64,000 nt of DNA from Allocoleopsis franciscana PCC 7113. Its GTDB lineage: Bacteria; Cyanobacteriota; Cyanobacteriia; Cyanobacteriales; Coleofasciculaceae. Made by a program: the position numbers and the translations under genes. Where the stretch lies: positions 5,296,001-5,360,000 of the forward strand of contig NC_019738.1 of NCBI RefSeq assembly GCF_000317515.1, in the 5' to 3' direction. The notes below the pieces were generated by a model. It was not told the DNA's origin. It was given only the letters and a program-made list of their open reading frames with translations, and made no database searches. Below are positions 7,751 to 62,689 of the stretch, one piece after another. Every line of letters begins with the position of its first letter. Position 1 is the first letter of the stretch.

Positions 7751-7838
7751 CAGGACTTATGCACAGCCTTTACTAGCAGAGTAGAAAGACTTACTCTACG
7801 GGGGTAGAGTTTAAACCTTCAATAAGGTATAAGTCCTG
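7751..7838. repeat. Inverted-repeat element, CAGGACTTAT ends
   Basis: CAGGACTTAT (7751-7760) and ATAAGTCCTG (7829-7838) are exact 10-bp inverted repeats bounding 88 bp; inside is a second hairpin, CTCTAC-GGGG-GTAGAG. Ends of the CAGGACTTA type are familiar from small palindromic elements in cyanobacterial intergenic DNA. It is non-coding. Confidence 0.55.
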
Positions 7839-7980
7839 CCTAATCAACATTAGCTTAGTAGCGCCTAATCACTACTCCTACCCCGTTGCGCTCAAAGATT
7901 GAGCTGTCTGCATGGAGGGATGGTTCCCACAATAAGCAGGGGAGCGGGGGAGCAGGGGTGCGCTTTTATCCTGTTTTCAG

Positions 7981-8067
7981 AAGATGTAATTTAAATGCAC
8001 GCTAGCTTACCCAAGTTGAGGCGTTAGTTGCTGGAAGGAAATTATGCCTATCCCTGCATTACATCTT
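7981..8067. repeat. Inverted-repeat element, AAGATGTAAT ends
   Basis: AAGATGTAAT (7981-7990) and ATTACATCTT (8058-8067) are exact 10-bp inverted repeats bounding 87 bp, almost the same length as the element at 7751-7838 but with unrelated ends. It is non-coding and lies upstream of the gene at 8175. A TATAAT (8119-8124) and a TTGACA (8079-8084) occur nearby but 34 bases apart, so they do not form one promoter. Confidence 0.45.
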
Positions 8068-8174
8068 GTGTTGTATTCTTGACAAAATGGTTAAAACCCC
8101 TATCCGTGGGGTACCTCCTATAATTTGGGAAGCGTGCAATAATAATCCGTCTATCACTTGGCGATCGCTTCCCT

Positions 8175-43884: not shown

Positions 43885-44085
43885 CGAGATTCTTTCTTGT
43901 CGATGGTTTAATTACACCAGTGTGGCAGAGTTGCAGACTCGACTGTTTCACACCGTGGGGAGATGACTTTGACCCTCATAGCCAACGATTCTGAACGTTA
44001 TAGAGGAATTAGGTCAAAATCAGGGACTCTTGATTCAAGAATCTTTAGACTTACGCAACATAAAAATTTTGATGAGGGAAAAATC

Positions 44086-47000: not shown

Positions 47001-47223
47001 CATCATTGACCAGATTGAGCGTACCCGTAACAGCGTGTTGCATCGAGCAGAACGTATGCAGCAGGAAGCTCAACGACGTATTGAGCAGGTCAAGTATCAA
47101 GCTCAGCGTCAGGCTGAAGAAACGCGCAAAGCGGCGGCATCGGCGGCTTGGTGGTTGTTTGGTACGGCGTCGGTTTCTGCGATCGCGTCAGCCATTGCCG
47201 GTGCTTTAGCGGTTGCTGGTTAA
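44086..47223 (+). CDS. Membrane protein with eight ~90-residue helical repeats
   Basis: A 1045-residue protein. After a short leader come three hydrophobic helices with an acidic loop (SSDSDSDKDDDESVG), then eight repeats of ~85-100 residues; the best match is DYLRSTGKAELNPEGIQRDL then LLSQRQDLSEAQVNQIIDD, and the units grow more alike toward the C-terminus. The last ~60 residues are a charged coil (RRIEQVKYQAQRQAEETRK) and a hydrophobic AG-rich helix. The repeats resemble a cyanobacterial family with no assigned role; a scaffold or cytoskeleton-like function is inference. ATG at 44086 has GAGGG; the ATG at 43963 lacks one. A strong terminator follows. Confidence 0.75.
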   Translation: MFDSGGIVLASHSWVAWLAQLAPAATDIDTAEQAALVFSGPKFFTALLSGVLLAFGFQLLLTNLSVAAGISYLGRSSDSDSDKDDDESVGSTIRKISTGVGIWTVVTVTIALFIACFLAVKLSLFNAWWFGAIVGLVIWATYFSLLVWVSSTAVGSLVGSVVHAATSGFQAIVGTATAAIGGGVASRQMVATAEAAAGAFRRELTAGIDPVSIRENVEDYLQSLRPPELNVQAIRSEFENLLNDPNLKEVAKSGNLRDVDRQTFVDLVSSRSDLSKRDVNRLADQLEAAWKKTVSQLPQPRDAMGELVDYLKNSTAQQLLGREFSQKLDELVGELRQRRQSHEKEQQPASPMAQAMTLGVNSLIGLVMGRTDLSDLDVEKVVGQLKKVKDQVGDQAGKITAQVSRDQAALPYSTVRADVENYLLDTPVWKLTNQQLLEREFRDVLYDPAADPGTIAAELEPLHRSDFADLLQQKGLLTQKQIREISNSLEAIRLEVLTEAEAAQERGQTLALYHEVEQYLLTTPQQDLTPEKIQLNFKPILEDSDADHGLLNNRLAQFDRSTFARILSQRQDLTIEEVDAIIPHLEQARDRALVESQEVQEAAKAQIEAQWLKVQSLLRDTGRAELNPDHVERELKMVLHSPQAGLAALRARAARFDRDTLVQLLNQRQDLSEEQINQTLDRVERSWTRITHTPQQIAGKAKEQYDQVMSSLADYLRSTGKAELNPEGIQRDLTRLLDNPRAGTSALRSRLARIDRDTLVKLLSQRQDLSEAQVNQIIDDVELTIRNIVKAPRRLARRTQRQVQDFQGAIADYLRSTGKDELNPDGIKRDVQLLLHDPRAGVSSLSDRLSHFDRDTLVKLLSQREDISEADVNRIADQILGVRDQMMAQMRDLQLSIQAAVDRIFAKIRNYLNSLDRPELNYDGIKADLRKLFDDPQAGFEAMRDRLSQFDRDTLVAVMSSREDISEADVNRIIDQIERTRNSVLHRAERMQQEAQRRIEQVKYQAQRQAEETRKAAASAAWWLFGTASVSAIASAIAGALAVAG

Positions 47224-47489: not shown

Positions 47490-48233
47490 TTAAACAATGA
47501 AGTCTAAGGAGGCATAAACGTTGGTTGTATCCTGGACAATAGCAATCAGATCACCATATCGGTAGATAGCCGTATCCAAAGCTGAACTGCCACCAAAATT
47601 CTGAGACTTATCCAATGTATAGTCGCCAATGCTACCGCCGACCCGAATCTTGTCACCTTCCCAATACTTAAAGTCAGTTATAGTAGCGTATCCAGAGCCT
47701 AGATACTTGATCTCGGTATAGGAGCCGTTGTAGCCCAAACCGAATGTGTCAGCCCCAGCACCACCCGTGAGGATGTCCTGATCGGTGGTAGAACCGCCAA
47801 AGGCCCCATCAAGATAATCATTGCCGTTACCACCAACTATCAAGTCGTTGCCACCACCCCCGTATAGAAAATCATTACCATCTTCACCATAGAGGGTGTC
47901 ATTACCTACTGGGGCTGACCCCCCTCCAAGAATGTTATCGCCATAGAGAGCGTCGTTATCTGCTCCACCGTAGAGTTGATCTGCGCCAGCCCCTCCTATG
48001 AGATTGTCGCTGCCATTTTCACCATAGAGAAAATCATTACCATTTTCACCATAGAGAAAATCATTGCCATTCCAGCCCTTCAACGTGTCTTGACCGTCCC
48101 CTCCATATACGGTGTCATTATTAGTATTTCCCCAGATAAAATCATTGCCCCCATAACCCCGTGCCAGAAGGATATCAGAACCCAGGTAATTGAAGTAATC
48201 GTTTCCAGAAGTGCCATTGTAGTTGTAAGTCAT
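47490..48233 (-). CDS. RTX-type calcium-binding secreted protein
   Basis: A 247-residue protein built of glycine-aspartate nonapeptides (GGDGQDTL, GENGNDFLYGENGND, GGAGADQLYGGADND, GGGGNDLIVGGNGNDYLDG), the Ca2+-binding beta roll of hemolysin-type repeats, and a C-terminal segment (ITDFKYWEGDKIRVGG, LIAIVQDTTNVYASLDFIV) typical of type I secretion. No signal peptide. It likely folds outside the cell when calcium is bound. The start follows TTAGGAACAACTGAC. No secretion genes are adjacent. Confidence 0.9.
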   Translation of the reverse strand: MTYNYNGTSGNDYFNYLGSDILLARGYGGNDFIWGNTNNDTVYGGDGQDTLKGWNGNDFLYGENGNDFLYGENGSDNLIGGAGADQLYGGADNDALYGDNILGGGSAPVGNDTLYGEDGNDFLYGGGGNDLIVGGNGNDYLDGAFGGSTTDQDILTGGAGADTFGLGYNGSYTEIKYLGSGYATITDFKYWEGDKIRVGGSIGDYTLDKSQNFGGSSALDTAIYRYGDLIAIVQDTTNVYASLDFIV

Positions 48234-48654
48234 GTCAGTTGTTCCTAAATTTCAAGGGGAGCTTGATTGTTGTGCCTTAGAAGTTGAGCAATTCTTAGCA
48301 AGCGGTCTAACCTGCTTATTAAGATTGAAAGAACGTAATTATCAAGTTGGTCTTTAAACTGAGGGTTAAGCTTCCTTGCCCTCCTTCTGTCTATTACTCA
48401 ACTCAAACACCCGGTGTTTTATGCAAAATTGAAAAATTAATTTATGTAACGAATTGCATAAAATTCTGCTTCTTTAGGTTGAGTAACAATCAGAGGTTCC
48501 TGATTCAATACATCATGAATAAATACTCAACACGACTCGTTAACCAGACACAACTGGAGTATCAAGCTGATGCTTCACCCGCTTATTTGAAGAAACGAAA
48601 ACAATAGTGAACGCTCTATTCAAGAGTTGCACCTCCAGTGGTATTTTCAAGACT
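48234..48654. other. Gap before sigma-like gene
   Basis: An 86-codon frame (48347-48607) looks non-coding in its first half; its end (from ATG 48515, MNKYSTRLVNQTQLEYQ) could be a 30-codon leader peptide that abuts the regulator gene, but has no good ribosome site. No promoter boxes are clear. Confidence 0.3.
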
Positions 48655-49554
48655 ATGGATGAGCGACTCGAAAAGCTAATCACAGAGGTACAACAACACG
48701 CTCCCCAATCTGAGGAGTGGCAGTTGGCGTTAACTCAACTGGTCAAAGAAATTCTCCGATCGCGAAAAATTGGTCGTCCGCCTATCGGTCAATCTCTATC
48801 TGGTGTTTACCAAGAAATTTACGAGCAAGCACAACAGCAACTTATACATAAGGTAGGTGAAGAACTTAGCAACTACAACCCAAAACGTATCCCTGTAAGA
48901 ACATGGGTCAATACCCTGCGAAATCTTGCTTTTAGAACAGTCTTGGATGATGTGCAACTCAAGAAACTAGCCTTAGAAGCTCAACGGCACCCACCCCATA
49001 GCGACTTACGACAACATGCTTTAGAAGAATTAGTGGAAGCCATTCGGCTATCAGGCAAGCTGAGCCACCCACATCGCACAAGATTTTCCCCCCAGTTTTA
49101 TGACCTGCTTTATGAAGAAGCGGTGAATAAAACTTTGATTTATGTCTGTCGGAAGATTGACAAATATGACCCCGAACGTGGTCAGGACAAAAAATTTATG
49201 ACTTGGGTCAATTTCCGACTAGATCGGGTCATTCTAGAGACCAGCAGAGAATTCAAAGACCCCAAAATCGTAGACTTACCTTCAATGAGTGATTTAGAAG
49301 AGAGATTACCCTCCGATGAATCACCTTCATTGTTTGAGCAACTTCGTGAATCTATAGAGGAAGATGCCAAAAATCTGTTTAAAAAGACACATATCCGAAA
49401 TCGTTGTGATGCTAATTTTCAAGCGATAGCCTTAGCCAGATTTTCGGGTCAAAGCTGGGAAGAAATTTCAACCCAATTCAGAATACCCTTACCAACATTA
49501 AGCAGTTTCTTTCAACGTTCTTGCGAAAAATTTCGCTCCCATTTTAGTCAATAG
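48655..49554 (+). CDS. Sigma-70-like regulator with duplicated core
   Basis: A 299-residue protein starting MDERLEKLITEVQQHAPQ, the usual start of the cyanobacterial sigma-70-like family that heads CHAT/DUF1822 clusters. C-terminal helix-turn-helix: NFQAIALARFSGQSWEEIS and FRIPLPTLSSFFQRS. Unusual: the ~95-residue N-terminal unit is repeated (ITEVQQHAPQSEEWQLALTQ / ALEAQRHPPHSDLRQHALEE; SNYNPKRIPVRTWVNTL / DKYDPERGQDKKFMTWVNF), where relatives as I know them have one. A GTG at 48607 allows 16 more residues but lacks support. DUF1822 follows 46 bp downstream. Confidence 0.78.
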   Translation: MDERLEKLITEVQQHAPQSEEWQLALTQLVKEILRSRKIGRPPIGQSLSGVYQEIYEQAQQQLIHKVGEELSNYNPKRIPVRTWVNTLRNLAFRTVLDDVQLKKLALEAQRHPPHSDLRQHALEELVEAIRLSGKLSHPHRTRFSPQFYDLLYEEAVNKTLIYVCRKIDKYDPERGQDKKFMTWVNFRLDRVILETSREFKDPKIVDLPSMSDLEERLPSDESPSLFEQLRESIEEDAKNLFKKTHIRNRCDANFQAIALARFSGQSWEEISTQFRIPLPTLSSFFQRSCEKFRSHFSQ

Positions 49555-49600
49555 TTACCCCAGCTTCAAACTTATTCTCCCCCTCAATGAGGCAACATCC

Positions 49601-50524
49601 ATGAACCCGAATCAATCCATCATTAACCCTGTTCTTGAACCTTGGACTTTCACCGTTCCCTTAGCCTTGGAGGCTCATGGGCGAGCAGAAGAGTTTCGAC
49701 GTTACCAATCGAATCCTGGCAAAGCCAAACAAATTTATCTGAATACCCTCGCTGTGTATGCCGTGCATGTTTACTTACAGTGCCGGGGATTTGAGACGGA
49801 CTTGGAGAGAAGCGATAGTTGGAACCCGATGATGCAGATGCTGATGGATACGGCTGATTTGTTGGTCAAAGATCACGGCAAGTTGGAATGTAGACCCGTG
49901 TTGCCAGAAGCAGAGGTTGTCGGCGTTCCCCCAGAAGTCTGGGAAGAACGGATGGGCTATGTTGCAGTCCAGCTTTCTGAATCCTTGAGAGAAGCAACGC
50001 TGCTGGGATTTGTGCAGAAGGTGGCAAAGTCAGAGGTACCCCTGAGCCAATTGCGATCGCTAGGAGAGTTACCAGGCTATCTGCATCAAATTAAACCCGT
50101 GATCAACCTGAGTCAATGGTTTGAGGATATCTTTGAAGCGGGTTGGCAAGCTGTGGAAGCCCTTTTAGCGGAACCTGCCGAGTTAGCGTTTAACTACAGA
50201 AGCGCTTCCCTTGAGGTGAGGCGGTGCAAGCAGATTGAACTGGCAACGGCAGATCGCTCAGTGGCGCTGATTGTCGCACTCATCGGAGAATCAGAGCAGG
50301 ACATGGATATTAGCGTAGAGGTGCAGCCCACAAACGGTCAATTCTATCTACCTGCCAATCTACAGCTAATGGTACTCAATGAGGATGGAGAAGCGGTGAT
50401 GGATATCCGTGCGGGTAGCAATAATAAGACCATTCAATTAGAGTTTGGTGGGGAAGCCGGAGACCGTTTCGGCGTTAAGGTGGTTTTGGGTGAGGTTAGC
50501 GTAACAGAGAATTTCATCATTTAA
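49601..50524 (+). CDS. DUF1822 protein
   Basis: A 307-residue soluble protein: FTVPLALEAHGRAEEFRRYQ, AKQIYLNTLAVYAVHVYL, QCRGFETDLERSDSWNP and GYVAVQLSESLREATLLGFV mark DUF1822. The second half is beta-rich (VALIVALIGESEQDMDISVEV, GDRFGVKVVLGEVSV). No catalytic motif is known. In cyanobacteria the gene sits between a sigma-like regulator and CHAT/CHASE2 genes, as here, so a part in the same signalling unit is likely. The next gene starts 30 bp downstream after AGGAG. Confidence 0.85.
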   Translation: MNPNQSIINPVLEPWTFTVPLALEAHGRAEEFRRYQSNPGKAKQIYLNTLAVYAVHVYLQCRGFETDLERSDSWNPMMQMLMDTADLLVKDHGKLECRPVLPEAEVVGVPPEVWEERMGYVAVQLSESLREATLLGFVQKVAKSEVPLSQLRSLGELPGYLHQIKPVINLSQWFEDIFEAGWQAVEALLAEPAELAFNYRSASLEVRRCKQIELATADRSVALIVALIGESEQDMDISVEVQPTNGQFYLPANLQLMVLNEDGEAVMDIRAGSNNKTIQLEFGGEAGDRFGVKVVLGEVSVTENFII

Positions 50525-50553
50525 ATAGCCGCAGCAATCGCTAGGAGTTGGCG

Positions 50554-52881
50554 ATGGGGAAGTTAATCGTTCTCAAAGTAGATGGTGATTTCAATCAAGG
50601 TTTTCGGGTAACCCTGGAGATTGGCGACTATGGCGATCGCCCAGAAGTGGAGGTTTTGGGCAACTTGCCCCCCGCGCCGGAACTGGTTGCACAGTATAGC
50701 GGCTGGCAGTCAAGCTATCGCCGTTTGGGCAAGGCTACCCGTATCCTTAAAGCCAAAGGAGCGAAGATTGATGGTTCCCTCAAAACCAGGAAACAAGAAT
50801 GCCGCACCCAATCCTTTGAGTTTTGCGATCGCCTCAATACCTGGCTCAAGGCTGAGTCCTTTCTCTCAATCCGAGAAAAGTGGCTCTCAAAAGTCAGCAC
50901 CTCTGATCAGGTGCGGGTGCTCATTCGTGCCAACAACCCGCAACTCTGGCAACTCCCCTGGCACCAGTGGGATTTATTGGAACGCTACACCTTTGCAGAA
51001 ATTGGAATCAGTTCTCTGGAGTGTGAAGCACCTCCGAGAAGAGAGAAGCCTCCTGATCGCTCACAGGTTAAAATTCTCGCGATTTTGGGCAATAGCCAAG
51101 ACATTCAAGTAGAACAAGACCGACAACGGCTAGAGAATTTACCCAACGCCGCCACAACATTTTTGGTGGAACCGCAACGCCAAGAACTCAATGATCAACT
51201 TTGGCAGCAGCATTGGGATATTTTATTCTTTGCAGGTCATAGTCAGACCGAAGGTGAAAGAGGGCGGATTTATCTCAACCAAACCGATAGCTTAACCCTG
51301 GACGAACTCAAGTATTCCCTACAAAAAGCAGTGGCAGGCGGGTTGCAACTAGCGATTTTCAACTCCTGTGATGGATTGGGATTAGCTAGGGAGTTAGACA
51401 AATTGCACATCCCCCAAATGATTGTGATGCGGGAACCAGTGCCAGACCTTGTGGCACAGGAATTTTTAAAGTATTTTCTTGATAGCTTTGCCAGGGGTGA
51501 GTCTCTCTATCGAGCCGTGCAGGAAGCGCGGCAGCAATTGCAAGGTTTAGAAGATGACTTTCCCTGTGCTAGCTGGTTGCCCGTGATTTATCAGAATCCT
51601 GCGGCTGTGCCTTTGACATGGTTACAATCGCCCGAACCTGCCACAGAACTTCCCTCTGTACAACCGGTTCCCCCAACCTTGCCCCCCTGGCATCGCTGGC
51701 GAACCGTCTTGGTTACCAGTTGGGTGGTTACCAGCTTAGTGCTGGGGGTGCGATCGCTGGGACTCCTGCAACGTTGGGAGTTAAAAAGCTACGATCAGCT
51801 CCTCCGTCAACGTCCTTCAGAATTAGCCGATGCTCGTATCCTGCTAGTGGGAGCCGATGAAGAGGATATTCGTGAATACAAGCATCCGCTACCCGATGCC
51901 GTTCTGGCGAAGCTGATTGAAAAACTGGAGCAATATCGACCCGTTGCGATCGGACTGGATATTTTTCGCGACCAAGCTGTACCGCCCGGTCATAATGCAC
52001 TCGTCACCCAATTAAAGCACAATCAACGTCTGGTTACCGTATGCTTCGGCACCGATCCAGAACATGCGGCTGCCCCTCCGCCCCACAGTCCGGCAGACCA
52101 ATTAGGCTTTAATGACTTACAACATGACAATGACTATACTGTTCGCCGCTATCTCCAATCCCGTACCCCAAATCCGATCGCTCCCCTTTCAGTTTGCAAG
52201 ACACCTTATTCCTTCAGCCTGCAACTAGCCTACCGATATTTAGAAGCTAAAGGTATCCCAGTAAACACAACTCCTGATAAAAACTGGCAGTTGGGTCATG
52301 TCATCTTTAAACGTTTAGAGCCTCATAGCGGAGGATACCAAAAGCTGGATGCACGGGGAAACCAGGTGTTAATCAATTACCGTAACACTCCTCAGATTGC
52401 TCAATTCGTTACTCTCAAACAGGTCTTCGCCGGGAAGTTGGAGCCGGAATGGGTGAAGGATCGGGTCGTTCTGATCGGTGTCACCGCCGCCAGCATTCAA
52501 GATGATCACAATACCCCTTATGGCAGAAGACGAGGACTGGAAGTTCATGCACACTTAGTGAGTCAGATGCTCAGTGCTGTTCAGGATGGACGCCCGCTGA
52601 TTTGGTGGCTGCCTCTATGGGGTGATGCTTTGTGGATTTGGGCTTGGTCACTGACGGGTGGAATACTTGTGTGGCAGATGCGATCGCGTTGTGTGGGCAA
52701 GGCAGAATCACCACGACGATTGGTTCTAGCGGTTGGCATCTCTGTTAGTGTTTTGTATGGACTCTGTTGGGTAATCTTGCTCCAAGGGGGTTGGCTACCC
52801 CTGATTCCGGCAGCAGTCGCTTTAGTAATTACAGGTGGTGCCATCGCCTACATTCCATTTCCCAGCCGTCAGCCGCAGTAG
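50554..52881 (+). CDS. CHAT-CHASE2 transmembrane receptor
   Basis: A 775-residue membrane protein. An N-terminal segment leads to a CHAT (caspase-like) domain with the dyad H229 (FFAGHSQ) and C272 (FNSCDG), cytoplasmic by topology; a membrane helix (~383-401); a CHASE2 sensor outside (YDQLLRQRPSELADARILLV, AIGLDIFRDQAVPPGHN, VLIGVTAASIQDDHNTPYG); then three C-terminal helices. CHASE2 usually precedes a kinase or cyclase; here the only output domain visible is the CHAT domain in front. ATG 50554 has AGGAG at 50543-50547; a TTG at 50548 is less likely. It follows DUF1822 closely. Confidence 0.88.
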   Translation: MGKLIVLKVDGDFNQGFRVTLEIGDYGDRPEVEVLGNLPPAPELVAQYSGWQSSYRRLGKATRILKAKGAKIDGSLKTRKQECRTQSFEFCDRLNTWLKAESFLSIREKWLSKVSTSDQVRVLIRANNPQLWQLPWHQWDLLERYTFAEIGISSLECEAPPRREKPPDRSQVKILAILGNSQDIQVEQDRQRLENLPNAATTFLVEPQRQELNDQLWQQHWDILFFAGHSQTEGERGRIYLNQTDSLTLDELKYSLQKAVAGGLQLAIFNSCDGLGLARELDKLHIPQMIVMREPVPDLVAQEFLKYFLDSFARGESLYRAVQEARQQLQGLEDDFPCASWLPVIYQNPAAVPLTWLQSPEPATELPSVQPVPPTLPPWHRWRTVLVTSWVVTSLVLGVRSLGLLQRWELKSYDQLLRQRPSELADARILLVGADEEDIREYKHPLPDAVLAKLIEKLEQYRPVAIGLDIFRDQAVPPGHNALVTQLKHNQRLVTVCFGTDPEHAAAPPPHSPADQLGFNDLQHDNDYTVRRYLQSRTPNPIAPLSVCKTPYSFSLQLAYRYLEAKGIPVNTTPDKNWQLGHVIFKRLEPHSGGYQKLDARGNQVLINYRNTPQIAQFVTLKQVFAGKLEPEWVKDRVVLIGVTAASIQDDHNTPYGRRRGLEVHAHLVSQMLSAVQDGRPLIWWLPLWGDALWIWAWSLTGGILVWQMRSRCVGKAESPRRLVLAVGISVSVLYGLCWVILLQGGWLPLIPAAVALVITGGAIAYIPFPSRQPQ

Positions 52882-52921
52882 ACATACCGCAGTACTCATC
52901 GTTTCTTGATCAATTTAATCG

Positions 52922-53662
52922 ATGATCTACGTACCGAAACTGAAACTTGGCTTTGTTACTGTTTTTGCGATCGCTGGCTTCACCCTCAATTTGGCACCCG
53001 GATGGACACAATCCAATGCCCAAGTCATGGCAGATTTGTCACTGGCTAAGGTGCCGCTACCACCCGGAACCGGCTCACCTGAAGATCCGCAGAAACCGGC
53101 AGGAACCCGTGATGGTAGTGGAGTTGGAGCCTGCCAGCAGACAGATCAGCCATTTACGGCCTTGGTTCCTAAAAATGCTGATGAAAGTTTAACAACGGCT
53201 GAGTATCCGGTGTTTTGGTTTTATATTCCTCATGCTTCTGAGGACATACACTCCATCGAGTTTTCGCTGCACAATCAAGATGAGACAAAGACTGTTTACA
53301 TAGCTCCCATCCAGCTCACTAAAACACCAGGCGTGATTGGTATTCCCTTGCCACCTAGCGCCAAATCTTCTCTAAAAGAGAATCAGAGCTACCGTTGGCA
53401 ATTAACTGTTAATTGTACGGCACAAACAAAGCCAGAGGATGCCATTGTTTTAGAGGGTTTGGTGACACGAGTTGAGCAAAGCTCTAATCTTGTTGGTGTC
53501 ATTTGGTACGATGAATTGACCAATCGAGCTAGACGCTACCTATCTGAACCACAAAATCCTGAAGTGAAGAAGGCTTGGACAGAATTGTTGAAATCTGTGG
53601 GCTTGGAAGAACTGGTTCAAGCACCTTTGGTGAGTTCAGTCGGGAATGCTAAAAAAGATTGA
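52922..53662 (+). CDS. DUF928 secreted protein
   Basis: A 246-residue exported protein: signal-like hydrophobic start (KLGFVTVFAIAGFTLNLAPG), then DUF928: GTRDGSGVGACQQTDQPFTA, VFWFYIPHASEDIHSIEF, PVT-like loops, GVIGIPLPPSAKSSLKENQ and YRWQLTVNC. DUF928 proteins of unknown role commonly sit next to CHAT/CHASE2 and two-partner-secretion genes in cyanobacteria. It starts 40 bp after the receptor gene, so it is probably in the same operon as the sigma-like, DUF1822 and receptor genes. Confidence 0.85.
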   Translation: MIYVPKLKLGFVTVFAIAGFTLNLAPGWTQSNAQVMADLSLAKVPLPPGTGSPEDPQKPAGTRDGSGVGACQQTDQPFTALVPKNADESLTTAEYPVFWFYIPHASEDIHSIEFSLHNQDETKTVYIAPIQLTKTPGVIGIPLPPSAKSSLKENQSYRWQLTVNCTAQTKPEDAIVLEGLVTRVEQSSNLVGVIWYDELTNRARRYLSEPQNPEVKKAWTELLKSVGLEELVQAPLVSSVGNAKKD

Positions 53663-53781
53663 ATTTATTTTATTTCTCTGGGTGTATATTGTAACTTTAT
53701 ATGACTATCTTAGTTCGGTACACGTAAATCTTTGAAAGGGAGCAGATAGGTAAGTAGAACAATTCAATTTACTTTCCTGGT

Positions 53782-55566
53782 ATGCTGGATTTAACTACAA
53801 ATTCTAAGAGCTTTCTGGAAGCATCTGTTGCTCCTCATTCTGCTAATTTAGGTGAGACCGTAGGAGTGATCGACTTAATTACTCCTGAGTCAGCCATCAT
53901 TAATAGTTCACTGGGTGGCTTGGCATTGAGCATCGATGAGAGCTTTATTGAACCCATTGATTTCCTCTCCTCGAATGTTGAGGCATTGACACTGATTCCG
54001 AACAAGAGCGAAGTTGGGACAAATATCTCTACCAGTACATCTACAGGAAGCAACGATAAAATAACGGGTCAGCCGCTTTCTGATATCGGCGTGACCCAGC
54101 TCAATAATACTTCATTAAATTCCTTCAACCTTACCACAATCAATAGCCAAATCATTTCTGATGTCGCTGTATTAGCTACAGATCCCAACGGCACGATCGC
54201 GACCGCCGATTCCGTAGGTACCTTGACAACCAGTATCACTCAGACGGGTCAAATTGGTGGCAATGAGTCCTATGGGAAGGATACACGCGACTATTGGAAG
54301 TTTAGTGTTAACAGTGATTTCAAGGTTAATTTATCGCTGTCTGGCTTGAGTGGAAATGCTGGTTTAGCCTTATATAACAGTGCCGGTAAATTACTCACTT
54401 GGTCTAACCATGGAGGCGCTAACTCCGAATCCATCAGCCATTGGCTGGGTAAAGGGGACTACTACGCTTTGGTTTATAGTGAGGGTAACTGGGGTGGCAG
54501 CACGAACTACAATCTTGGCCTCCAAGCAGGTACACAGTTAAGTAGTCTCATCACTGACTACACCGTCCACCAAGCTGTATCATCAAGGATTGGAGATGGT
54601 CAGATTGACCGCAATGATATGATTGCCATTTTGCGTAGTACTAAAGATGGCAGCGTCATTGCCGAGGAAATTAACGACCTTCGAGATATTTTGAATGATG
54701 CTAAGGCTTTCGGTCTTGATGGCTACGTGCAAAATCTGGCTAACAAAGTGGTTAATGGTAATGTTGCCAACCAGAAGTACAAAGGTGCAGCTCTGGGTAA
54801 CTTGTTTGCAGGTAGTAGTGCCACCCATATGGAAAGCTTAGTGGATAAGTGGTTCCTAGGAGGCGATCATCCAGTTGCCAAATCTTCAAGTGGTAACACA
54901 ACCTACAGCTACAAGCAGGCTAGTGGATCGCTCTTCCAAAACGGCATCAGCTATCAAGATATAGACCAGGGTGGTGTTGGTGATTGCTACTTCGTCGCGT
55001 CTCTAGCGGGAACAGCTTTCCGTTCGCCCGATACAATTCGGGATATGTTCATCGACAACAATGATGGCACATTTACAGTTCGCTTCTTTAACGGAGATAA
55101 GGCTGACTACGTCACAGTAGACAAATATTTACCAACTACCGCTGGAGGAAATGCTGTGTTCGCTGGTTGGGGCGGTGGTTCCTATAACGAATCTAACAAT
55201 GAATTGTGGGTTGCATTAGCGGAAAAAGCCTACGCTCAAATCAACGAGTCAGCATGGATTGGTCAAGATAACACGAATTCTTACCAAGGCATTGCTTATG
55301 GTACTCTCAAGGCAATTAGCCACATCACAGGGCTTAATAACACTGGGTATAAGGACTTAGAAGCAGGTGACTTCAATTCAGTTGTGAACGCCTTCAATGC
55401 AGATCGCATTATCTATCTCAGTGATGGAGGTCATGCTTACACGCTAGTCGGCTACAATGCCACTACCCAGATGTTTAAAGTCTACAATCCATATGGCTCA
55501 ACGCAAGACATGACTTGGACAGCATTGGACAACAAGTTTGTCCGCTGGGGTTACTCAACCACCTAA
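53782..55566 (+). CDS. PPC-domain calpain-like cysteine protease
   Basis: A 594-residue protein. The N-terminal ~130 residues are low complexity; a bacterial pre-peptidase C-terminal (PPC) beta domain (~135-250; TRDYWKFSVNSDFKVNLSLS) is followed by a helical link and a peptidase C2 (calpain) domain: C402 (GGVGDCYFVASLAG), H551 (DGGHAYTLVGY), N569 (VYNPYGS), the full triad. No Sec signal peptide is evident, so secretion would need another route. It should cleave proteins, possibly calcium-dependent. It sits 120 bp after the DUF928 gene, same strand; a functional link is inferred from position. Confidence 0.85.
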   Translation: MLDLTTNSKSFLEASVAPHSANLGETVGVIDLITPESAIINSSLGGLALSIDESFIEPIDFLSSNVEALTLIPNKSEVGTNISTSTSTGSNDKITGQPLSDIGVTQLNNTSLNSFNLTTINSQIISDVAVLATDPNGTIATADSVGTLTTSITQTGQIGGNESYGKDTRDYWKFSVNSDFKVNLSLSGLSGNAGLALYNSAGKLLTWSNHGGANSESISHWLGKGDYYALVYSEGNWGGSTNYNLGLQAGTQLSSLITDYTVHQAVSSRIGDGQIDRNDMIAILRSTKDGSVIAEEINDLRDILNDAKAFGLDGYVQNLANKVVNGNVANQKYKGAALGNLFAGSSATHMESLVDKWFLGGDHPVAKSSSGNTTYSYKQASGSLFQNGISYQDIDQGGVGDCYFVASLAGTAFRSPDTIRDMFIDNNDGTFTVRFFNGDKADYVTVDKYLPTTAGGNAVFAGWGGGSYNESNNELWVALAEKAYAQINESAWIGQDNTNSYQGIAYGTLKAISHITGLNNTGYKDLEAGDFNSVVNAFNADRIIYLSDGGHAYTLVGYNATTQMFKVYNPYGSTQDMTWTALDNKFVRWGYSTT

Positions 55567-55672
55567 AGAACTCCATCAATACTATTCTGAAAATAGAGAC
55601 GGGGAGACGGGGTGAAGAACTCTTACTCCCCCTCTTCTAAAAGATTAGTATTCTGTTAATTATTGAACTGAT

Positions 55673-56170
55673 ATGGTCAGAATAGTTGTTTTATTGGCTC
55701 TAGCTATTAACGCAGGCTGTAGCAGTCTTCCTGTGACGCAAACGAAAGATTTACAAATATCTCCAATGAAAGAAACCACCATGTCTTATACAACAAATAT
55801 TTCCATTAAAAACATCACTCTCCAAGCCAGAGAAGAAAAAACACCTCCGGATGGAGTACCCAATAAACAAAATCGGGATATTGGATTTGCTTCTGTGTTT
55901 CTCCGCCTTGAAAATGCTAAGGAGGAAGATGTTAGCCTAACTGTTCAACGTGTTGAAATTCGCAATACAGTTGATGGGAATGTTCAACTGTCGGATTCCT
56001 CTCCTCAACAGATTCGTTTGCGCCCCTTAGAAAATTCTGAGGTAGTTTTCCATTTAACCAATAAAACTGGCTATTCTAAACACAACCAGGTTAAGGCGGT
56101 CATAACTTATACAATTGGCGATCACCTGCAAGTAATCGAATCCACTCCGGTTGAGGTTGAAAGATCCTGA
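55673..56170 (+). CDS. Small putative lipoprotein
   Basis: A 165-residue protein with a short hydrophobic start (RIVVLLALAINAGCSSLPV); the C16 could be lipidated, although the -3 residue (N) is not the usual L/V/I. The rest is beta-rich (YTTNISIKNITLQAREEK, GFASVFLRLENAKEEDVSL, HNQVKAVITYTIGDH). No family is recognised. It follows the calpain-like gene by ~105 bp on the same strand and ends convergent with the TPR-CHAT gene. Confidence 0.6.
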   Translation: MVRIVVLLALAINAGCSSLPVTQTKDLQISPMKETTMSYTTNISIKNITLQAREEKTPPDGVPNKQNRDIGFASVFLRLENAKEEDVSLTVQRVEIRNTVDGNVQLSDSSPQQIRLRPLENSEVVFHLTNKTGYSKHNQVKAVITYTIGDHLQVIESTPVEVERS

Positions 56171-56210
56171 ATAGCAAAGTCATCTACTGAGTCATTGGCA
56201 ATCGATCAAA

Positions 56211-58997
56211 CTAAAGCCAATTTCCCACTAGAACATAAGGTGCCCAATAGTAGGGAGCTTTATATTGCTTAAAGAGTTCTAACTGAGCCTGATGCAGTGC
56301 CTCAGCCTTTGTCACTTCAGGCTTAGTTAACTCCTTGTAGAATTGCCCCATCAATTCAGCCGTAGAGCGATCGCTCACTTGCCACAGGGTTGAGAGTACA
56401 CTCCGCGCGCCCGCTCTCACCGCTATCCCAGCTAACCCCAATGTTGCTCGGTTATCTCCTTGCGCTGTCTCACAAGCACTCAGGACGAGTAACTCAACAC
56501 TCCTAGATGGACTTTGGTTGTTAATCCGAAGCAAGTTATTCAAGTCGCTGCTTTTGAGGAGCTGATCGTAAGCCAAAATATAGGTTTCTTCAGGGTCAGA
56601 ACTGAACTTACCATGAGTTGCAATATGAACGGCAGAAAACGCTCCTGAGTTAATCTTTTGTTGCAGATTTGCTTCCGTAAATTTGGGATTCAGCAGTGAT
56701 TCTGAAGGTACTATATTTCCCACTTCTTGCAATTCCTCTGGCACGCTGGGGAGTGCGCTAAACGTTCGCTGCTCAACTTGTCGCTGTTCACTCACTCCCG
56801 CTATCAAAACCTCTAACCGTTCTCGTTGCAGGGGTCGGAGGTCGAAAAGCTGTAAGCCTGGAACCAAAGCAAGCGCATACGGTTTCTGCATCAGATACTC
56901 CTTCCGCTTGCCATCATAAAGCACTGACATGGGAATATTTCGCAGAACCCCATCGAGCACAAACACTAATGTTTTAACTTCTTTAGTGTTTTCTAGGTCT
57001 GGCTCTAGAGGTTTGATTAGCCATTCGTAAACTTGTGTGGCATTTTTGATGACTTCTTCTGGACGGTTACGTCTTAATAGGTATGATCGCAAATCAATTG
57101 CTGTTTTTTCGACCTCACTCCGTTTGACAGAATTGACATGGTGTTTTAGAGGTTGTCCTGGAAGTTTAGCAATCACTTCTAAGCGGTTTTCCAGAATAAT
57201 TGGATAAATAAATGCTGCTTTCTGGTCTACCTTGTCACCCTCTTGGTTAAGCTGTACTCTCTCAGAAAGGTTACAGCTCAAAAAATTTTCCAATTCAGCT
57301 AACTGAAGGGAATCAATAACCTCAATCGCCTCTTGCAGATCGGATTGGCTCGGTTCCGAACTTTCCTCAGTTCTTAATAGCAAATCAACGAGTTTACGGT
57401 GAATCGGTTCTACATTGTCCCGAAAAGAAAACTGTACCTCTGAGTCAATGGTGAGTAAATCGCTCTTGACGGATTTGAGAGTTTTAACGGCTTCTTTATA
57501 GGCAAGAATCGCTCTTTTTCGATTTCCCTGTTTTTCCCATAAACGTCCCAGTTGCCATTCCCAACGGTAGCGAATATCGGGAGCTTGACTCTCCTCAGCT
57601 AGGAGGAGCGCTTTCTGGGTAAGTTCTTGGGCTGCTGACCACTGTTCAGTCAGTTCATACAGCCCACCTAGCTGTCCCAAAGCATAGGACTCAGCCCTTC
57701 GGTCTTTCAGAGTGCGAGCCTGTTGGACAGTATCGGCTAGAATTTGGGCAATTTCTGGCGAGGAAACTGGAACAAGGGTTTGCTGGGGAAGCTGTTCCCT
57801 TCGCTTTTCTTGGCGAGCGCGGCTCATGCATGAAAACGCGCTCGTGTCAAGATTGGGCTGGAGACAAGTCAGACTGCGAGCAAAGTTAAGTCGGGCATAA
57901 ATCGTTGTTTGACTCACCGGTAAACTAACCATCAACCCCTGGATTGTGGATTGTAGTTTGGCGGCTTCTGACCATTGTCCAGTTTCTACCAAAAGACTGA
58001 GCAAATTTAACTGAGCATGAAGTTTGAGGGGAGGTGAATCAGCGGCCTGTTGATAAAATGCGATCGCAGCTTGAGTATGCTTCTTTTCATCTTCTTCCTG
58101 ACCAATCGCGCTCGCTCTATTACCCAAGGCGCGTTCGGTATTTCCCAACTCCAGCAAAGCCGAACCCAGCGCTTTGGAGAGTTGAAAATCTTTAGCCACT
58201 GTCCGACTTTTGAGCAAAACCGCTTGAGACTGTCTTAGTTTGCCAACTTGTCTGAGAGCTTTACCCAGATTCTGCAATCCAGTTGCCTTGAGTTCAGAGT
58301 TTGATTGTTGATTTAGAATTAGCTCAATTTTTTGTAGTTCCGCCTCAGCTTGACTGGTTAAGCCTAAGGATTGTAGAGCTTGGGCGTGGTTAATCAAACT
58401 ACCAATAACACCTGTTTTATTCCCTGCTTTTTCGTAGGTAGCGGCTGCTTTGTTCCAGGTTAAAAGAGCTTCTGACCACTGTCCTTGTGCCCATTGCAGG
58501 CGACCTTGAGTATTTAATACTTTGGCGAAAACATCTAAGTATGCCTGGGTGTTAGCTGTTTGTACCTGGTTATTTAGAAGGTTCAGGCTGTTTGCAATCG
58601 CTCCTTCTGCTTCCTGCCACTGTCCCAAGTGTTGATAAGCCAATGAAAGATAGCGTAAGAGCAGCGCTTGGTTCAGGCTATCTCCTTGAGTTACAAAAGC
58701 AGAAACTGCCTGCTGCCAAACCTCTATCGCCTGCGAAAACTGTCCAGTCTCATAGAGTTCTATACCCTGTTGCAATAACAAGTTGGCATTGGAACTCTGA
58801 GAAATGCCTTGAGCAGTGCCTTCAATCGGTTGAGCTGACAGAGCCGGAACAGATAAGGTTGTTATAAGTGCCAACAGTGCTATAAGGCTTAGTCTGACTA
58901 TCTGTTGGTACGCCCTGCGTGGCGCGGACTTTCTCAAAAGTCGAATGGGATGGCAAAATAGAGGCGATTTGCTGCTCATGGGCTGGTTCTCTAACAC
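56211..58997 (-). CDS. Secreted TPR-CHAT protein
   Basis: A 928-residue protein: signal peptide (IVRLSLIALLALITTLSVPA), ~9 TPR-type helices (NANLLLQQGIELYETGQFSQ; AYLDVFAKVLNTQGRLQWAQ; RYRWEWQLGRLWEKQGNRK), then a CHAT domain with H795 (HIATHGKF) and C842 (LSACETAQGD), plus GLAGIAVRAGARSVLSTLW. CHAT domains are caspase-like proteases in several cases; here the dyad is intact. A start at 58979 (MSSKSPLFCHP) is also possible. Next to it on the same strand lies the TPS exoprotein, a pairing common in cyanobacteria. Confidence 0.9.
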   Translation of the reverse strand: MLENQPMSSKSPLFCHPIRLLRKSAPRRAYQQIVRLSLIALLALITTLSVPALSAQPIEGTAQGISQSSNANLLLQQGIELYETGQFSQAIEVWQQAVSAFVTQGDSLNQALLLRYLSLAYQHLGQWQEAEGAIANSLNLLNNQVQTANTQAYLDVFAKVLNTQGRLQWAQGQWSEALLTWNKAAATYEKAGNKTGVIGSLINHAQALQSLGLTSQAEAELQKIELILNQQSNSELKATGLQNLGKALRQVGKLRQSQAVLLKSRTVAKDFQLSKALGSALLELGNTERALGNRASAIGQEEDEKKHTQAAIAFYQQAADSPPLKLHAQLNLLSLLVETGQWSEAAKLQSTIQGLMVSLPVSQTTIYARLNFARSLTCLQPNLDTSAFSCMSRARQEKRREQLPQQTLVPVSSPEIAQILADTVQQARTLKDRRAESYALGQLGGLYELTEQWSAAQELTQKALLLAEESQAPDIRYRWEWQLGRLWEKQGNRKRAILAYKEAVKTLKSVKSDLLTIDSEVQFSFRDNVEPIHRKLVDLLLRTEESSEPSQSDLQEAIEVIDSLQLAELENFLSCNLSERVQLNQEGDKVDQKAAFIYPIILENRLEVIAKLPGQPLKHHVNSVKRSEVEKTAIDLRSYLLRRNRPEEVIKNATQVYEWLIKPLEPDLENTKEVKTLVFVLDGVLRNIPMSVLYDGKRKEYLMQKPYALALVPGLQLFDLRPLQRERLEVLIAGVSEQRQVEQRTFSALPSVPEELQEVGNIVPSESLLNPKFTEANLQQKINSGAFSAVHIATHGKFSSDPEETYILAYDQLLKSSDLNNLLRINNQSPSRSVELLVLSACETAQGDNRATLGLAGIAVRAGARSVLSTLWQVSDRSTAELMGQFYKELTKPEVTKAEALHQAQLELFKQYKAPYYWAPYVLVGNWL

Positions 58998-59020
58998 TGA
59001 AAAACGAAGAATCAGGATAG

Positions 59021-62000
59021 CTAGCGTAGGCGACAGCGACGTTGGGTGCCAGTGATAGGCACCTCAGCCACGAGGACAACTTCCCCTTTTTGGTTAATCC
59101 GCCACCCTTGAGCCTCGACAATTTGGTCAGGTGGGGTTGCGAGTGCGGCAGAGACAGGAACAGCACGAGCCTCAAGTTCAGTTCCCTGTGTGGCAGAGGG
59201 TACATCTTCCCAAATGTCACTGCTGCTTATCGGTTCGTAAGGATTAGGTGCTAAACCCCCTCTGCCAGTATCGAAAAACTCAACAGCTCCCTGCTGTTCA
59301 GCGGCTTGGCAGCCTTGTGCAACCTCTACGTTGACTGGCTCAATGGGTAAGTTCACTAATCCCTGGCTGGGGTCAACATCGGGCGTGATAATCTGCACAG
59401 TGCCGTTTACCCCAAACTCAGAACTGGCGGTAATATCACTCAACGGAGTCAGGAGGGGGCGGAATTGAAGGCCATAAATACCTTGAGTTGTAATATTGAT
59501 ATTGCCGCCTCGACCTGTGAAGGCATTGGCGGTAATGTCGCTATTCTCTTTAGGGACAGCAAGGATAAACTGAGCATCAATCGCGATATTGCCACCATCT
59601 CCCCCAGCTTGAGCCGTGCCTGCGGTTGTGGATATACGGCTACCATGACGCATCAGTAATAAATCCTGCACCTGTAGGGTAATACCGCCACCTGCGTTAC
59701 TCGCTGTTTCAGCAGAGATTGAAGCATTATTGTTCAGGGTTATAGCACCAGCCTGAATCTGGATGTTACCGCCTTCCCCCGCGCCCTGGCTATCCACTGC
59801 GACACTTGCGCCCTCTCGAATCACCATCGTCTTGGGGTTACTAATGAGAATGCTGCCGCCGTTGCCGATAGAACCGCGCTCTGTGTTGGCAAACAGACCA
59901 CTGTCAGATCCGGCTAGGGTAACATCCTCATGTACTCTTAGGGTGATGTTTCCAGCCTGATTGCTGCCGGCTGTAGTGGTGCGGAGTTGTCCGCCATTGA
60001 TAGCCTCAAAACGATTTGCCGTCACAGCGATACTACCACCAGTGCCACCGGAGGTAGAAGCAGAAACCTGTGCTGTATCCTGGACAGTCAACAGTGGGGT
60101 ATTAACTATCACATTTCCAGCAGCCCCAGTACCTTCAGTCCTAGCAAATAAACCACTGGCAGAGCCATCCGTATCAACTTGATCAAATTGGGCGAGGCGT
60201 GCAGTAAAAGTGGAATCATTGCCAGCTAGGATGACGCGATCGCTGGTATTAACTGTAATGTTACCTGCATCTCCGCTACTGAAGGCCGTGGTGAGGAGTT
60301 GTCCACCATTGGTAACCTCAAGCGTATTGGCATCGACATTGATATTACCGCCCTTAAAGGAACTCCGGCTTACGGCACTCAATACTGCGCCATCCGATAC
60401 TCGCAAGGTACTGGTAGTAACTCGGATATCACCACCCTGACCCCCAGCACCTTCTTCCGTGTTAGTCAATAACCCACTAGAGAAGCCTGTGGTTGAACCC
60501 ACGCCAGAGAGGTTAACAGTATCTGAAATGTTGATTGCAATATTTCCTGAGTTTCCTGCTCCAAAGGTGGCGGCAAAGAGTTGAGCGCCGTTGGTTAACC
60601 AGAGGGATTTAGCTGCAAGCTGGATGTCGCCACCATTGCCCTGTGCTTCCCATGCCACGCCACTGATAATAGCGCTGGTATCACCGATGAGCGAGATAGA
60701 ATCATTCGCCTGTACAAAAATGCTGCCAGCATTTCCTGTGCCGAAGGTGCTGTTAGAGATACGGCTCCCATCTACTAGAGATAGGTAACCTGTCTGGATA
60801 TCAATGTTTCCGGCCTGACCGTTAGCTCCAAAGTCTACATTAGAGTAGATTTTGCTACTGGTAAGGGAAATAAAATCATTGGCTCGAACGGTTATAGTTC
60901 CGGCATTTCCCTGCCCAGCCGTATCAGCAAACAAGACAGAGTTATCAGTCAAGGAAAGTGAACCAACGCTGAGGTTAATGTCACCCCCTGAGCCGATACC
61001 TCCTTCTTCTACGCTGGAATCTAAAGCAGAACCTTCACTTAAGGAGAGTGAGTTAGTTTGTATATTGATTTTGCCCCCTTTCCCGATAGAGCCTTCTCTT
61101 ACAGCGCTGTAGATTCGACCATTTACTAGCAAAATAGATTCGTTAGCCTGCACGGTGATATTGCCAGAATCTCCTTGACCAAAGGTACTCGTACTCAGGT
61201 CAGCACCATCAGTTAAGGAAAGCAACGGAGTCTGGATATTGATGTCGCCACCGTTACCTTCAGCATCAGAACCCACATTGCTCCTGATACTAGTGTTTCC
61301 TGTCAATGAGACAGAGTCCTTGGCCTCAATTAATATTTTTCCAGCGTTTCCCTGCCCGAAAGTAATAGCGCCTATTTGAGCGTTATCGGTTAAAGAAACA
61401 AATGTAGCTTTGATATTTACGTTGCCGCTATTCCCAGTAGAATCCGGAAGTACAGAGTTGGCCACGATACTTCCCTGTCCTATGTTTACCTCTCCTATGG
61501 CATCAAGTGTGATATCTCCTGCCTGAGTGCCATTAAACCCAAAATCGGCATCGAATCCAGCCCTAACACTACTGCGGTCAATGGTTAGATTATCGGCATA
61601 AATGGTAATGCTACCACCATCACCGAGGCTCCTAATTACGCTGCCATTAACTGAGACATCTGTCCGTGCTATAGCTTCAGGAACGTTTAAACGTAGACTG
61701 CTGTTATTAACCTCCAATCCAATGGTTCCCGAATCACTTACCCCCGCCAACTCGACTCGACCCTCCGGAGCCTCCAACAGCGTGCGATTGAGCTGCAAAT
61801 TACCACCGACAAGAGCTAAGGTTTTACCCTCAAGCACTTGGAGTCTAGACCCCTGCGTTTCGATACTTCTGGCATTACCTCCATATTGCAATCCCAGAGG
61901 AACATTAATGGTAAGCAGGGGAGGAGATTGGGGCGCAGTAGCACTAAACGCCAAGCCATTTTCAAACACCAAACTGTTGGCTGTTGTCGCGACAAATGAA

Positions 62001-62482
62001 CTCTCCACATCCAACTGGGCATTGGGTCCAAAGATAATCCCATTGGGATTAATCAAAAATAAGTTAGCTGTCGAATCACCAAAAGTACCGACTAGACCCA
62101 AAATTCTGGATGGATTACCACCCGTCACCCGTGCCAGAATGTTCTGAATACCCGCTGGACTATAGAAGTAGGCTCCTCGATCAGCCTCAACATTAAATGC
62201 TAAAAAGCTGTGGAATAGATTTGTACCTCTAGTTGCTCCACCATCGATTTCGTCAATCGGCAATCCCAGGTCATCAAGGGGTGTAACAACAGAAGGTTCA
62301 GCCCCTAAAGTAGCATCGGGAATAATTTGAGCCAGGGTAGGATTTCCCAAAGAAGCGATCGCTCCACCGAGCAAAAAATTTATTAAGAGAAAAATAGCTC
62401 TATTTAGAATAAATATAGATAAATAATCGGTAAGATTTGCCGAGCCGTTTTCCTCATTTTTTGCTCGGCTATTAATTGACAC
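59021..62482 (-). CDS. Two-partner-secretion exoprotein (filamentous hemagglutinin N-terminal domain)
   Basis: A 1153-residue exported protein. From the GTG at 62482 (AAGGAG at 62489-62494) comes a hydrophobic signal (LNRAIFLLINFLLGGAIASL), then the TPS domain (GGATRGTNLFHSFLAFNV, LFLINPNGIIFGPNAQL, the NPNG motif) and many ~40-residue beta-helix turns (e.g. LSLTDGADLSTSTFGQGDSG; VQANDSISLIGDT). A TTG at 62524 is the open end but less likely. TpsB (the outer-membrane pore) is not in the window. It likely acts at the cell surface as an adhesin or effector. Confidence 0.9.
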   Translation of the reverse strand: MSINSRAKNEENGSANLTDYLSIFILNRAIFLLINFLLGGAIASLGNPTLAQIIPDATLGAEPSVVTPLDDLGLPIDEIDGGATRGTNLFHSFLAFNVEADRGAYFYSPAGIQNILARVTGGNPSRILGLVGTFGDSTANLFLINPNGIIFGPNAQLDVESSFVATTANSLVFENGLAFSATAPQSPPLLTINVPLGLQYGGNARSIETQGSRLQVLEGKTLALVGGNLQLNRTLLEAPEGRVELAGVSDSGTIGLEVNNSSLRLNVPEAIARTDVSVNGSVIRSLGDGGSITIYADNLTIDRSSVRAGFDADFGFNGTQAGDITLDAIGEVNIGQGSIVANSVLPDSTGNSGNVNIKATFVSLTDNAQIGAITFGQGNAGKILIEAKDSVSLTGNTSIRSNVGSDAEGNGGDINIQTPLLSLTDGADLSTSTFGQGDSGNITVQANESILLVNGRIYSAVREGSIGKGGKINIQTNSLSLSEGSALDSSVEEGGIGSGGDINLSVGSLSLTDNSVLFADTAGQGNAGTITVRANDFISLTSSKIYSNVDFGANGQAGNIDIQTGYLSLVDGSRISNSTFGTGNAGSIFVQANDSISLIGDTSAIISGVAWEAQGNGGDIQLAAKSLWLTNGAQLFAATFGAGNSGNIAINISDTVNLSGVGSTTGFSSGLLTNTEEGAGGQGGDIRVTTSTLRVSDGAVLSAVSRSSFKGGNINVDANTLEVTNGGQLLTTAFSSGDAGNITVNTSDRVILAGNDSTFTARLAQFDQVDTDGSASGLFARTEGTGAAGNVIVNTPLLTVQDTAQVSASTSGGTGGSIAVTANRFEAINGGQLRTTTAGSNQAGNITLRVHEDVTLAGSDSGLFANTERGSIGNGGSILISNPKTMVIREGASVAVDSQGAGEGGNIQIQAGAITLNNNASISAETASNAGGGITLQVQDLLLMRHGSRISTTAGTAQAGGDGGNIAIDAQFILAVPKENSDITANAFTGRGGNINITTQGIYGLQFRPLLTPLSDITASSEFGVNGTVQIITPDVDPSQGLVNLPIEPVNVEVAQGCQAAEQQGAVEFFDTGRGGLAPNPYEPISSSDIWEDVPSATQGTELEARAVPVSAALATPPDQIVEAQGWRINQKGEVVLVAEVPITGTQRRCRLR

Positions 62483-62689
62483 TTGGTTTCTCCTTTTTTG
62501 CTTATATATCCTTTTAACTAACAAATTTTAATTAAGATTTTATAGAAAAATGCATACTTAATAAAAATCAATGATTAATTTCCATCAAGAACAATAAATT
62601 CGGAATATCTAAAAATTTTATTTAATTTTAATTTAGCCGTAACCGAAAAGCCGTGTAAAATCCCGATGACCTAAAGCGGAGCTCACCCA

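Follow-up and report, generated by a model that had tools for sequence, protein, structure and literature searches.

The locus analysed here lies in Allocoleopsis franciscana PCC 7113 (contig NC_019738.1), within a stretch of 64,000 nucleotides (positions 5,296,001 to 5,360,000) referred to below as the window. Eight genes had been called at this locus from the letters of the sequence alone; all of them were found at the positions claimed, and open reading frames (ORFs) and Pfam domains agreed, the sigma-like protein scoring below the Pfam cut-offs. In window coordinates, the features are as follows.

48607–49554, plus strand: predicted ECF-type sigma factor (sigma-like); ORF, with an alternative ATG start at 48655
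49601–50524, plus strand: DUF1822 protein (Pfam PF08852, E 5e-66)
50548–52881, plus strand: EACC2-CHAT-CHASE2 receptor, 777 aa (Pfam CHAT, E 1e-14; CHASE2, E 2e-66)
51238–51240, plus strand: codon of the predicted catalytic His231 of the receptor (FAGHS), invariant in 86 relatives
51367–51369, plus strand: codon of the predicted catalytic Cys274 of the receptor (NSCDG), invariant in 86 relatives
52922–53662, plus strand: DUF928 protein with an N-terminal signal-like segment (Pfam, E 9e-43)
53782–55566, plus strand: calpain-family protease with a PPC domain, outside the conserved cassette (Peptidase_C2, E 1e-18)
55673–56170, plus strand: small putative lipoprotein (ORF), outside the conserved cassette
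56211–58997, minus strand: secreted TPR-CHAT protein, signal-like segment at residues 36–54 (Pfam CHAT, E 1e-59)
59021–62524, minus strand: TPS-domain (two-partner secretion) exoprotein (Pfam PF05860, E 9e-57)

The first four genes (sigma factor, DUF1822, receptor and DUF928) are spaced by 23–46 bp, and the gaps are 119 bp between DUF928 and the calpain gene and 106 bp between the calpain and lipoprotein genes. A scan for promoter and terminator consensus sequences returned nothing clearly above shuffled sequences. Near the cassette, the window also encodes an RTX-repeat protein (47490–48233) and a 1086-aa ORF (43963–47223) in which a unit of approx. 100 residues, with a motif around FDRDTLV, is repeated several times and hydrophobic segments lie at the ends. 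Such RTX-repeat proteins accompany the cassette in 12 of 83 loci; others occur in L068 (2291–4117), L079 (4691–6184) and L080 (5712–6569), and the one in L079 follows DUF928, in the position held by the calpain gene in the window.

The receptor consists of an EACC2-like region (residues 1–115) and a CHAT domain (120–337), followed by CHASE2 and C-terminal transmembrane helices, with no C-terminal output domain. Its CHAT dyad, His231/Cys274, is intact, and the dyad is kept in all 86 relatives compared. The CHAT domain is remote from the canonical model (approximately 56 bits, vs 200–300 bits for most other CHAT domains of the genome) and is predicted to be a protease. In the 86 relatives, CHAT is preceded by an N-terminal region, conserved and about 115 residues long, and we assign this putative domain to EACC2 by architecture, without a profile match. 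The C-termini vary, being CHASE2 in 72 of the 86 proteins and other, mostly longer, sequences in 14. In three loci (L092, L109 and L129) two ORFs take the place of the receptor gene, which is broken in or before CHASE2 by frameshifts or sequence errors.

The sigma-like protein was below the Pfam cut-offs (Sigma70_r2, E 0.003), and in a profile search of solved structures ECF sigma factors came top, weakly (E 0.002–0.004). Its AlphaFold model (pLDDT 90.2) gave sigma factors for essentially every top structural match, the best being E. coli sigmaE with RseA (1or7, Z 10.3); M. tuberculosis SigK (4nqw) matched with Z 9.3 and an rmsd of 2.6 over 82 residues, and residues 110–315 matched the structures of sigmaE, SigK, SigW and AlgU. 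Three domains can be delineated, namely an N-terminal sigma2-like domain (approximately 15–112), the true sigma2 (110–223) and sigma4 (approximately 255–315). The first two reflect an internal duplication (residues 15–112 vs 113–223, 34% identity over 88). ECF factors have sigma2 and sigma4 only, and this is also the make-up of the window protein save for the extra N-terminal sigma2-like copy. Judged by the model, the fold is clear and the protein is predicted to be an ECF-type sigma factor. Two families of sigma-like genes were found before DUF1822: the short type, as in the window, with 62 loci in all, and a second one of approximately 390–510 residues, with 29 mutually linked loci. Three scanned members of the latter (L159, L161 and L166) have Sigma70 region 4 above the Pfam cut-off, the remaining scanned members having weak Pfam scores or none. 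In Scytonema and Rhizonema (L087, L088), the sigma-like gene before DUF1822 encodes 858 aa, with sigma-like sequence to the C-terminus. The available excerpts of the literature on SigJ, SigI and SigG name no adjoining DUF1822.

The model of the DUF1822 protein (pLDDT 90.6) is mainly beta with few helices and has two parts, an alpha/beta N-terminal region and a C-terminal Ig-like beta sandwich (205–306); no transmembrane segment or signal was predicted, which places the protein in the cytoplasm. Kaur, Iyer, Burroughs and Aravind (eLife 2021, PMC8195603), in the sections available, refer to DUF1822 as a TPR protein, in contrast to this model, which together with the lack of a Pfam TPR match rules out such an assignment. 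Fold searches against solved structures yielded weak generic beta-sandwich matches that extend over the C-terminal part and say little about the N-terminal one, and among solved structures neither sequence nor fold matched known anti-sigma factors or Csx30. We propose that DUF1822 is a soluble anti-sigma factor or adaptor and a CHAT substrate. In small genomes of 1.8–2.2 Mb (family f17; L208–L211 and others), one protein, usually of about 1000 aa (539–1313), contains a stretch weakly matching the N-terminal part of the DUF1822 model; in L210 of this family, neither a sigma nor a CHAT gene was recognised among its neighbours.

The host genome (8 Mb) encodes approximately 50 CHAT, 16 CHASE2, 15 DUF928 and more than 30 TPS proteins, with only four DUF1822. 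Each of the four DUF1822 genes has an EACC2-CHAT gene no more than 6 kb away (permutation random mean 0.03), so that the genome holds four DUF1822/EACC2-CHAT cassettes, and three of the four EACC2-CHAT genes concerned also carry CHASE2. Similarly, DUF928 is near a CHASE2 gene in 12 of 15 cases (random mean 0.4). One host paralogue cassette, L070, has an extra 444-aa gene (7832–9166) between DUF1822 and the EACC2-CHAT-CHASE2 gene.

With the EACC2-CHAT region as query, a scan of 84,980 species genomes gave at least 532 relatives, the best 80 of which were all cyanobacterial to judge by their record titles; none was found in 2.9 million viral contigs, and a viral origin of the cassette was rejected on this ground. 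The fractions that follow were derived from the 80 loci nearest to the window copy and thus describe that neighbourhood of the EACC2-CHAT family. The order sigma, DUF1822, EACC2-CHAT-CHASE2, DUF928 recurs across cyanobacteria: DUF1822 is less than 1 kb upstream in 55 of 64 CHASE2-type receptors and DUF928 less than 1 kb downstream in 54 of 62. DUF928 was downstream of none of the 13 EACC2-CHAT proteins with other C-termini and thus accompanies the CHASE2-bearing version alone. A short-type sigma gene was located at most 3 kb upstream in only 34 of 64 CHASE2-type receptors, partly because the short-type profile misses the second sigma family. The independent annotation of plasmid pC052_D (Nostoc sp. 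C052) lists three consecutive genes, for a sigma-70 factor, a DUF1822 protein and a CHASE2 protein, and DUF928 and CHAT proteins adjoin them. Sigma factor, DUF1822, receptor and DUF928 thus belong together, with linkage far above chance. Furthermore, EACC2-CHAT genes are present on 44 plasmid records, 13 of them predicted to be conjugative (e.g. NC_019428.1, NC_011737.1 and NZ_CP040276.1), so the cassettes may move between strains.

A second sample, centred on DUF1822, comprised 59 genomes spread evenly over the phylum and picked without reference to CHAT, and 44 of these had DUF1822 matches. Among the stronger matches, a sigma-like gene preceded almost every DUF1822, directly so in most loci. 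What came third differed between loci: TPR-CHAT, an EACC2-CHAT protein ending in CHASE2 or in another C-terminus, a TPS exoprotein (L200, L202) or no obvious candidate. Sigma and DUF1822 thus make up the invariant core. In several genomes (L159, L160, L162 and L163), DUF1822 and a sigma-70-like protein of 390 aa form a strongly conserved pair with no recognised CHAT gene after it; hence DUF1822 cannot only be a CHAT substrate (L159–L163).

The genes next to the core fall into two groups. The TPR-CHAT protein, with intact motifs (ATHG, SACET), has counterparts within 6.5 kb in 23 of the 41 CHASE2-type loci with enough flanking sequence, and TPS exoproteins occur within the same distance in 13 of these 41. 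TPR-CHAT is inside the operon in L095, L170 and L176, and in L095 and L170 the genes run on one strand as sigma, TPS, TPR-CHAT, DUF1822, receptor, DUF928. In L200, L202 and plasmid pNsp_b, TPS immediately adjoins DUF1822 or the receptor; on the plasmid, the annotated gene before the receptor is the TPS gene. TPR-CHAT and the TPS exoprotein are probable output or surface partners of the cassette, and their recurrence favours the surface remodelling that the sequence-only reading had offered as one output, as an association only. In the host, nine ORFs of 1243–2470 aa appear, by shared ORF lengths and positions, to hold a TPS domain together with a C-terminal CHAT (e.g. 6133089–6138164, 4237673–4241707, 3984511–3989439 and 1211002–1217016 on C1), suggesting exoproteins with a built-in protease. 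The calpain (intact motifs GDC at 400, GHAY at 550 and NPYG at 569) is the only Peptidase_C2 protein of the host genome. Its relatives were absent from other cassettes save for one marginal match (L156, E 1e-5), and the lipoprotein had none among the ORFs of other loci. Both had been counted as members of the system; having no convincing counterpart in any other cassette, they are ruled out.

Distance correlations were calculated over 49 dereplicated cassettes and, for comparisons with sigma, over the 26 with a short-type sigma. The partial correlation of DUF1822 with the EACC2-CHAT half of the receptor, given CHASE2, was 0.61, vs 0.01 with the CHASE2 half given EACC2-CHAT; for DUF928 the values were 0.56 with the CHASE2 half and 0.22 with the EACC2-CHAT half, each given the other (49 cassettes). 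Sigma followed DUF1822 given CHAT (0.43) and not CHAT given DUF1822 (0.02; 26 cassettes). Bootstrap intervals of the differences excluded zero in the set of 49, and in the set of 26 the interval for DUF1822 touched zero. Along the receptor, the modules change over at about residue 397, which is the boundary of CHASE2; the correlation with DUF928 is highest in the middle of CHASE2, not at its end nearest to DUF928. One polypeptide is thus divided between two modules, {sigma, DUF1822, EACC2-CHAT} and {CHASE2, DUF928}, and the correlations resolve a putative relay order, DUF928-CHASE2 / EACC2-CHAT-DUF1822-sigma. It should be noted that the genes stand in the same order as the steps of the relay, and recombination along the operon could therefore, as a confounder, give part of this pattern. 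A positional control in 25 loci eases this confounder and does not remove it: TPR-CHAT vs DUF928 given CHASE2 gave 0.00, and the two module signals remained in the same loci (0.72 and 0.66). Correlated evolution, conserved linkage and the conserved dyad together support the earlier suggestion of a single signalling system linking the receptor CHAT, DUF1822 and the sigma-like protein; the linkage was not scattered and the His/Cys dyads were not lost, the gene order recurring and the dyad being present in every one of the 86 relatives.

Building on the gene order, the conservation of the dyad, the sigma fold and the two-module split, all of them results of this analysis, we infer a transmembrane protease-to-transcription relay, with a probability of about 0.5 for the whole chain of sensing, cleavage, sigma release and target genes. 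Outside the inner membrane, CHASE2 and the exported DUF928, proposed to be its periplasmic partner, would read the state of the envelope or surface. Their signal would switch the EACC2-CHAT protease, which, as the cytoplasmic N-terminal part of the CHASE2 polypeptide, would act on DUF1822, the protein presumed to hold or adapt the adjoining ECF-type sigma factor. Cleavage or remodelling of DUF1822 would free the sigma factor, which would then transcribe the cassette and probably surface genes, such as those of the adjoining TPS exoprotein and TPR-CHAT. A precedent exists in the CHAT protease Csx29, which cleaves Csx30 and so relieves the inhibition of CASP-sigma (PMC10028731). The cassette, conserved in many cyanobacteria, in which EACC2-CHAT genes are abundant, probably turns cell-surface events into gene expression. 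As the relay order names binding pairs and a cleavage target, a bench test is direct. Tentatively, the scheme may extend to a general cyanobacterial class in which a receptor-borne caspase-like protease frees sigma by cleaving DUF1822, with an exchangeable outside module (CHASE2 and DUF928) and a fixed inside module (EACC2-CHAT, DUF1822 and sigma), and controls surface exoproteins.

According to the proposal of Kaur et al. for EACC2 systems (PMC8195603, as far as available), the stimulated CHAT would instead cleave the polypeptide of which it is part, setting free an active fragment in the cytoplasm, sigma being a later, separate step and DUF1822 a scaffold, not a substrate. A single cut would be enough to free EACC2-CHAT, which precedes the membrane anchor, and the correlation with DUF1822 is stronger for the EACC2 segment than for the CHAT segment, as would be expected of a docking domain. 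However, autoproteolysis leaves unexplained why sigma distances track DUF1822 and not CHAT given DUF1822, and why sigma-DUF1822 pairs exist without a receptor; we consider it rather unlikely. A CHAT domain acting as a conformational signalling domain, with DUF1822 and sigma regulated by binding only, would agree with the lack of a known substrate and with the distance of the receptor CHAT from the canonical model, but His and Cys invariant in 86 divergent relatives are hard to explain without catalysis, and a non-proteolytic switch seems improbable. Just as doubtful is the role in defence or programmed death brought up by the sequence-only reading, in which the triggered receptor or cassette would kill the cell or block phage. 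Kaur et al. class EACC2 systems with the predicted conflict systems of multicellular bacteria (PMC8195603, in the sections available), and related EACC2-CHAT genes are also plasmid-borne, but no PADLOC model matched the core proteins and the DUF1822 family gave scattered chance matches only (PADLOC 2023). Furthermore, the viral contigs contained no relative, the conserved set has no toxin-like effector, the sensor is directed to the envelope and the genes that recur nearby encode surface exoproteins. That unrelated genes merely adjoin in a CHAT-rich genome, where TPS and TPR-CHAT are common, holds for the one-off calpain and lipoprotein genes, but as an account of the locus it is highly improbable, and for the four core genes it is ruled out by the permutation tests, the recurrence of their order across the phylum and the pC052_D annotation.

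The protease-to-transcription relay can be compared with several known systems. The core arrangement has already been predicted: the available text of PMC8195603 describes EACC2-caspase proteins with variable C-termini, including CHASE2, whose genes adjoin an ECF sigma factor and DUF1822, and proposes sensing, autopeptidase activation and transcriptional output. Those systems and the window share an N-terminal domain (alpha+beta in those systems, putatively the same in the window), a caspase-like domain, a CHASE2 C-terminus and the ECF sigma and DUF1822 neighbours. Variable C-termini and both neighbours were found in the window and its relatives, and the window cassette belongs to this group, EACC2 being matched by architecture. 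DUF928, TPS exoproteins and TPR-CHAT are not mentioned with EACC2 systems in the available parts of that main text. Our additions are the constant association of DUF928 with the CHASE2 version, the relay order in two modules, the corrected DUF1822 fold, the invariant core of sigma and DUF1822, and the recurring TPS and TPR-CHAT neighbours. In the literature searched, as far as its text was available, no report of these additions was found, which leaves priority uncertain. A Nostoc punctiforme cluster of CHASE2, DUF928 and WD40 genes (PMC5587647) is similar in its CHASE2 and DUF928 genes, and the available part of that paper does not mention CHAT, DUF1822 or a sigma factor. The literature searched held nothing further on a gene set of CHASE2 with CHAT, DUF928, TPS or HetF-PatU3, no experimental test of the cassette core and no tested function for EACC2-CHAT or DUF1822. 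The cyanobacterial CHAT protein HetF is a distant comparison, its NCBIfam model CellDiv_HetF matching the receptor weakly (36 bits vs a cut-off of 1200) and in the CHAT region alone.

In the regulated proteolysis of RseA/sigmaE by DegS and RseP, an envelope signal activates a protease and an ECF sigma factor is released. The RseA/sigmaE complex is also the closest structural match of the window sigma model. The relay proposed here differs in that the receptor would itself be the protease, its active site lying in the cytoplasm, and in that DUF1822 is predicted to be soluble and not a membrane anti-sigma factor. The type III-E CRISPR system CASP/Craspase (Cas7-11, the TPR-CHAT protein Csx29, Csx30 and CASP-sigma; PMC10028731) likewise encodes a CHAT protease, a sigma-binding protein and an ECF-type sigma factor together, and its protease cleaves the sigma inhibitor. 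However, no relation was detected between DUF1822 and Csx30, no Cas domain was present among the window proteins scanned with Pfam, and the window protease is part of a CHASE2 membrane receptor. By analogy, the cassette is to be read as a likely analogue of the Craspase/Csx30/CASP-sigma circuit, not as a member. If the relay is true, it would be the membrane-receptor counterpart of the CRISPR CHAT/sigma circuit and would offer a way in to surface-protein control in filamentous cyanobacteria.
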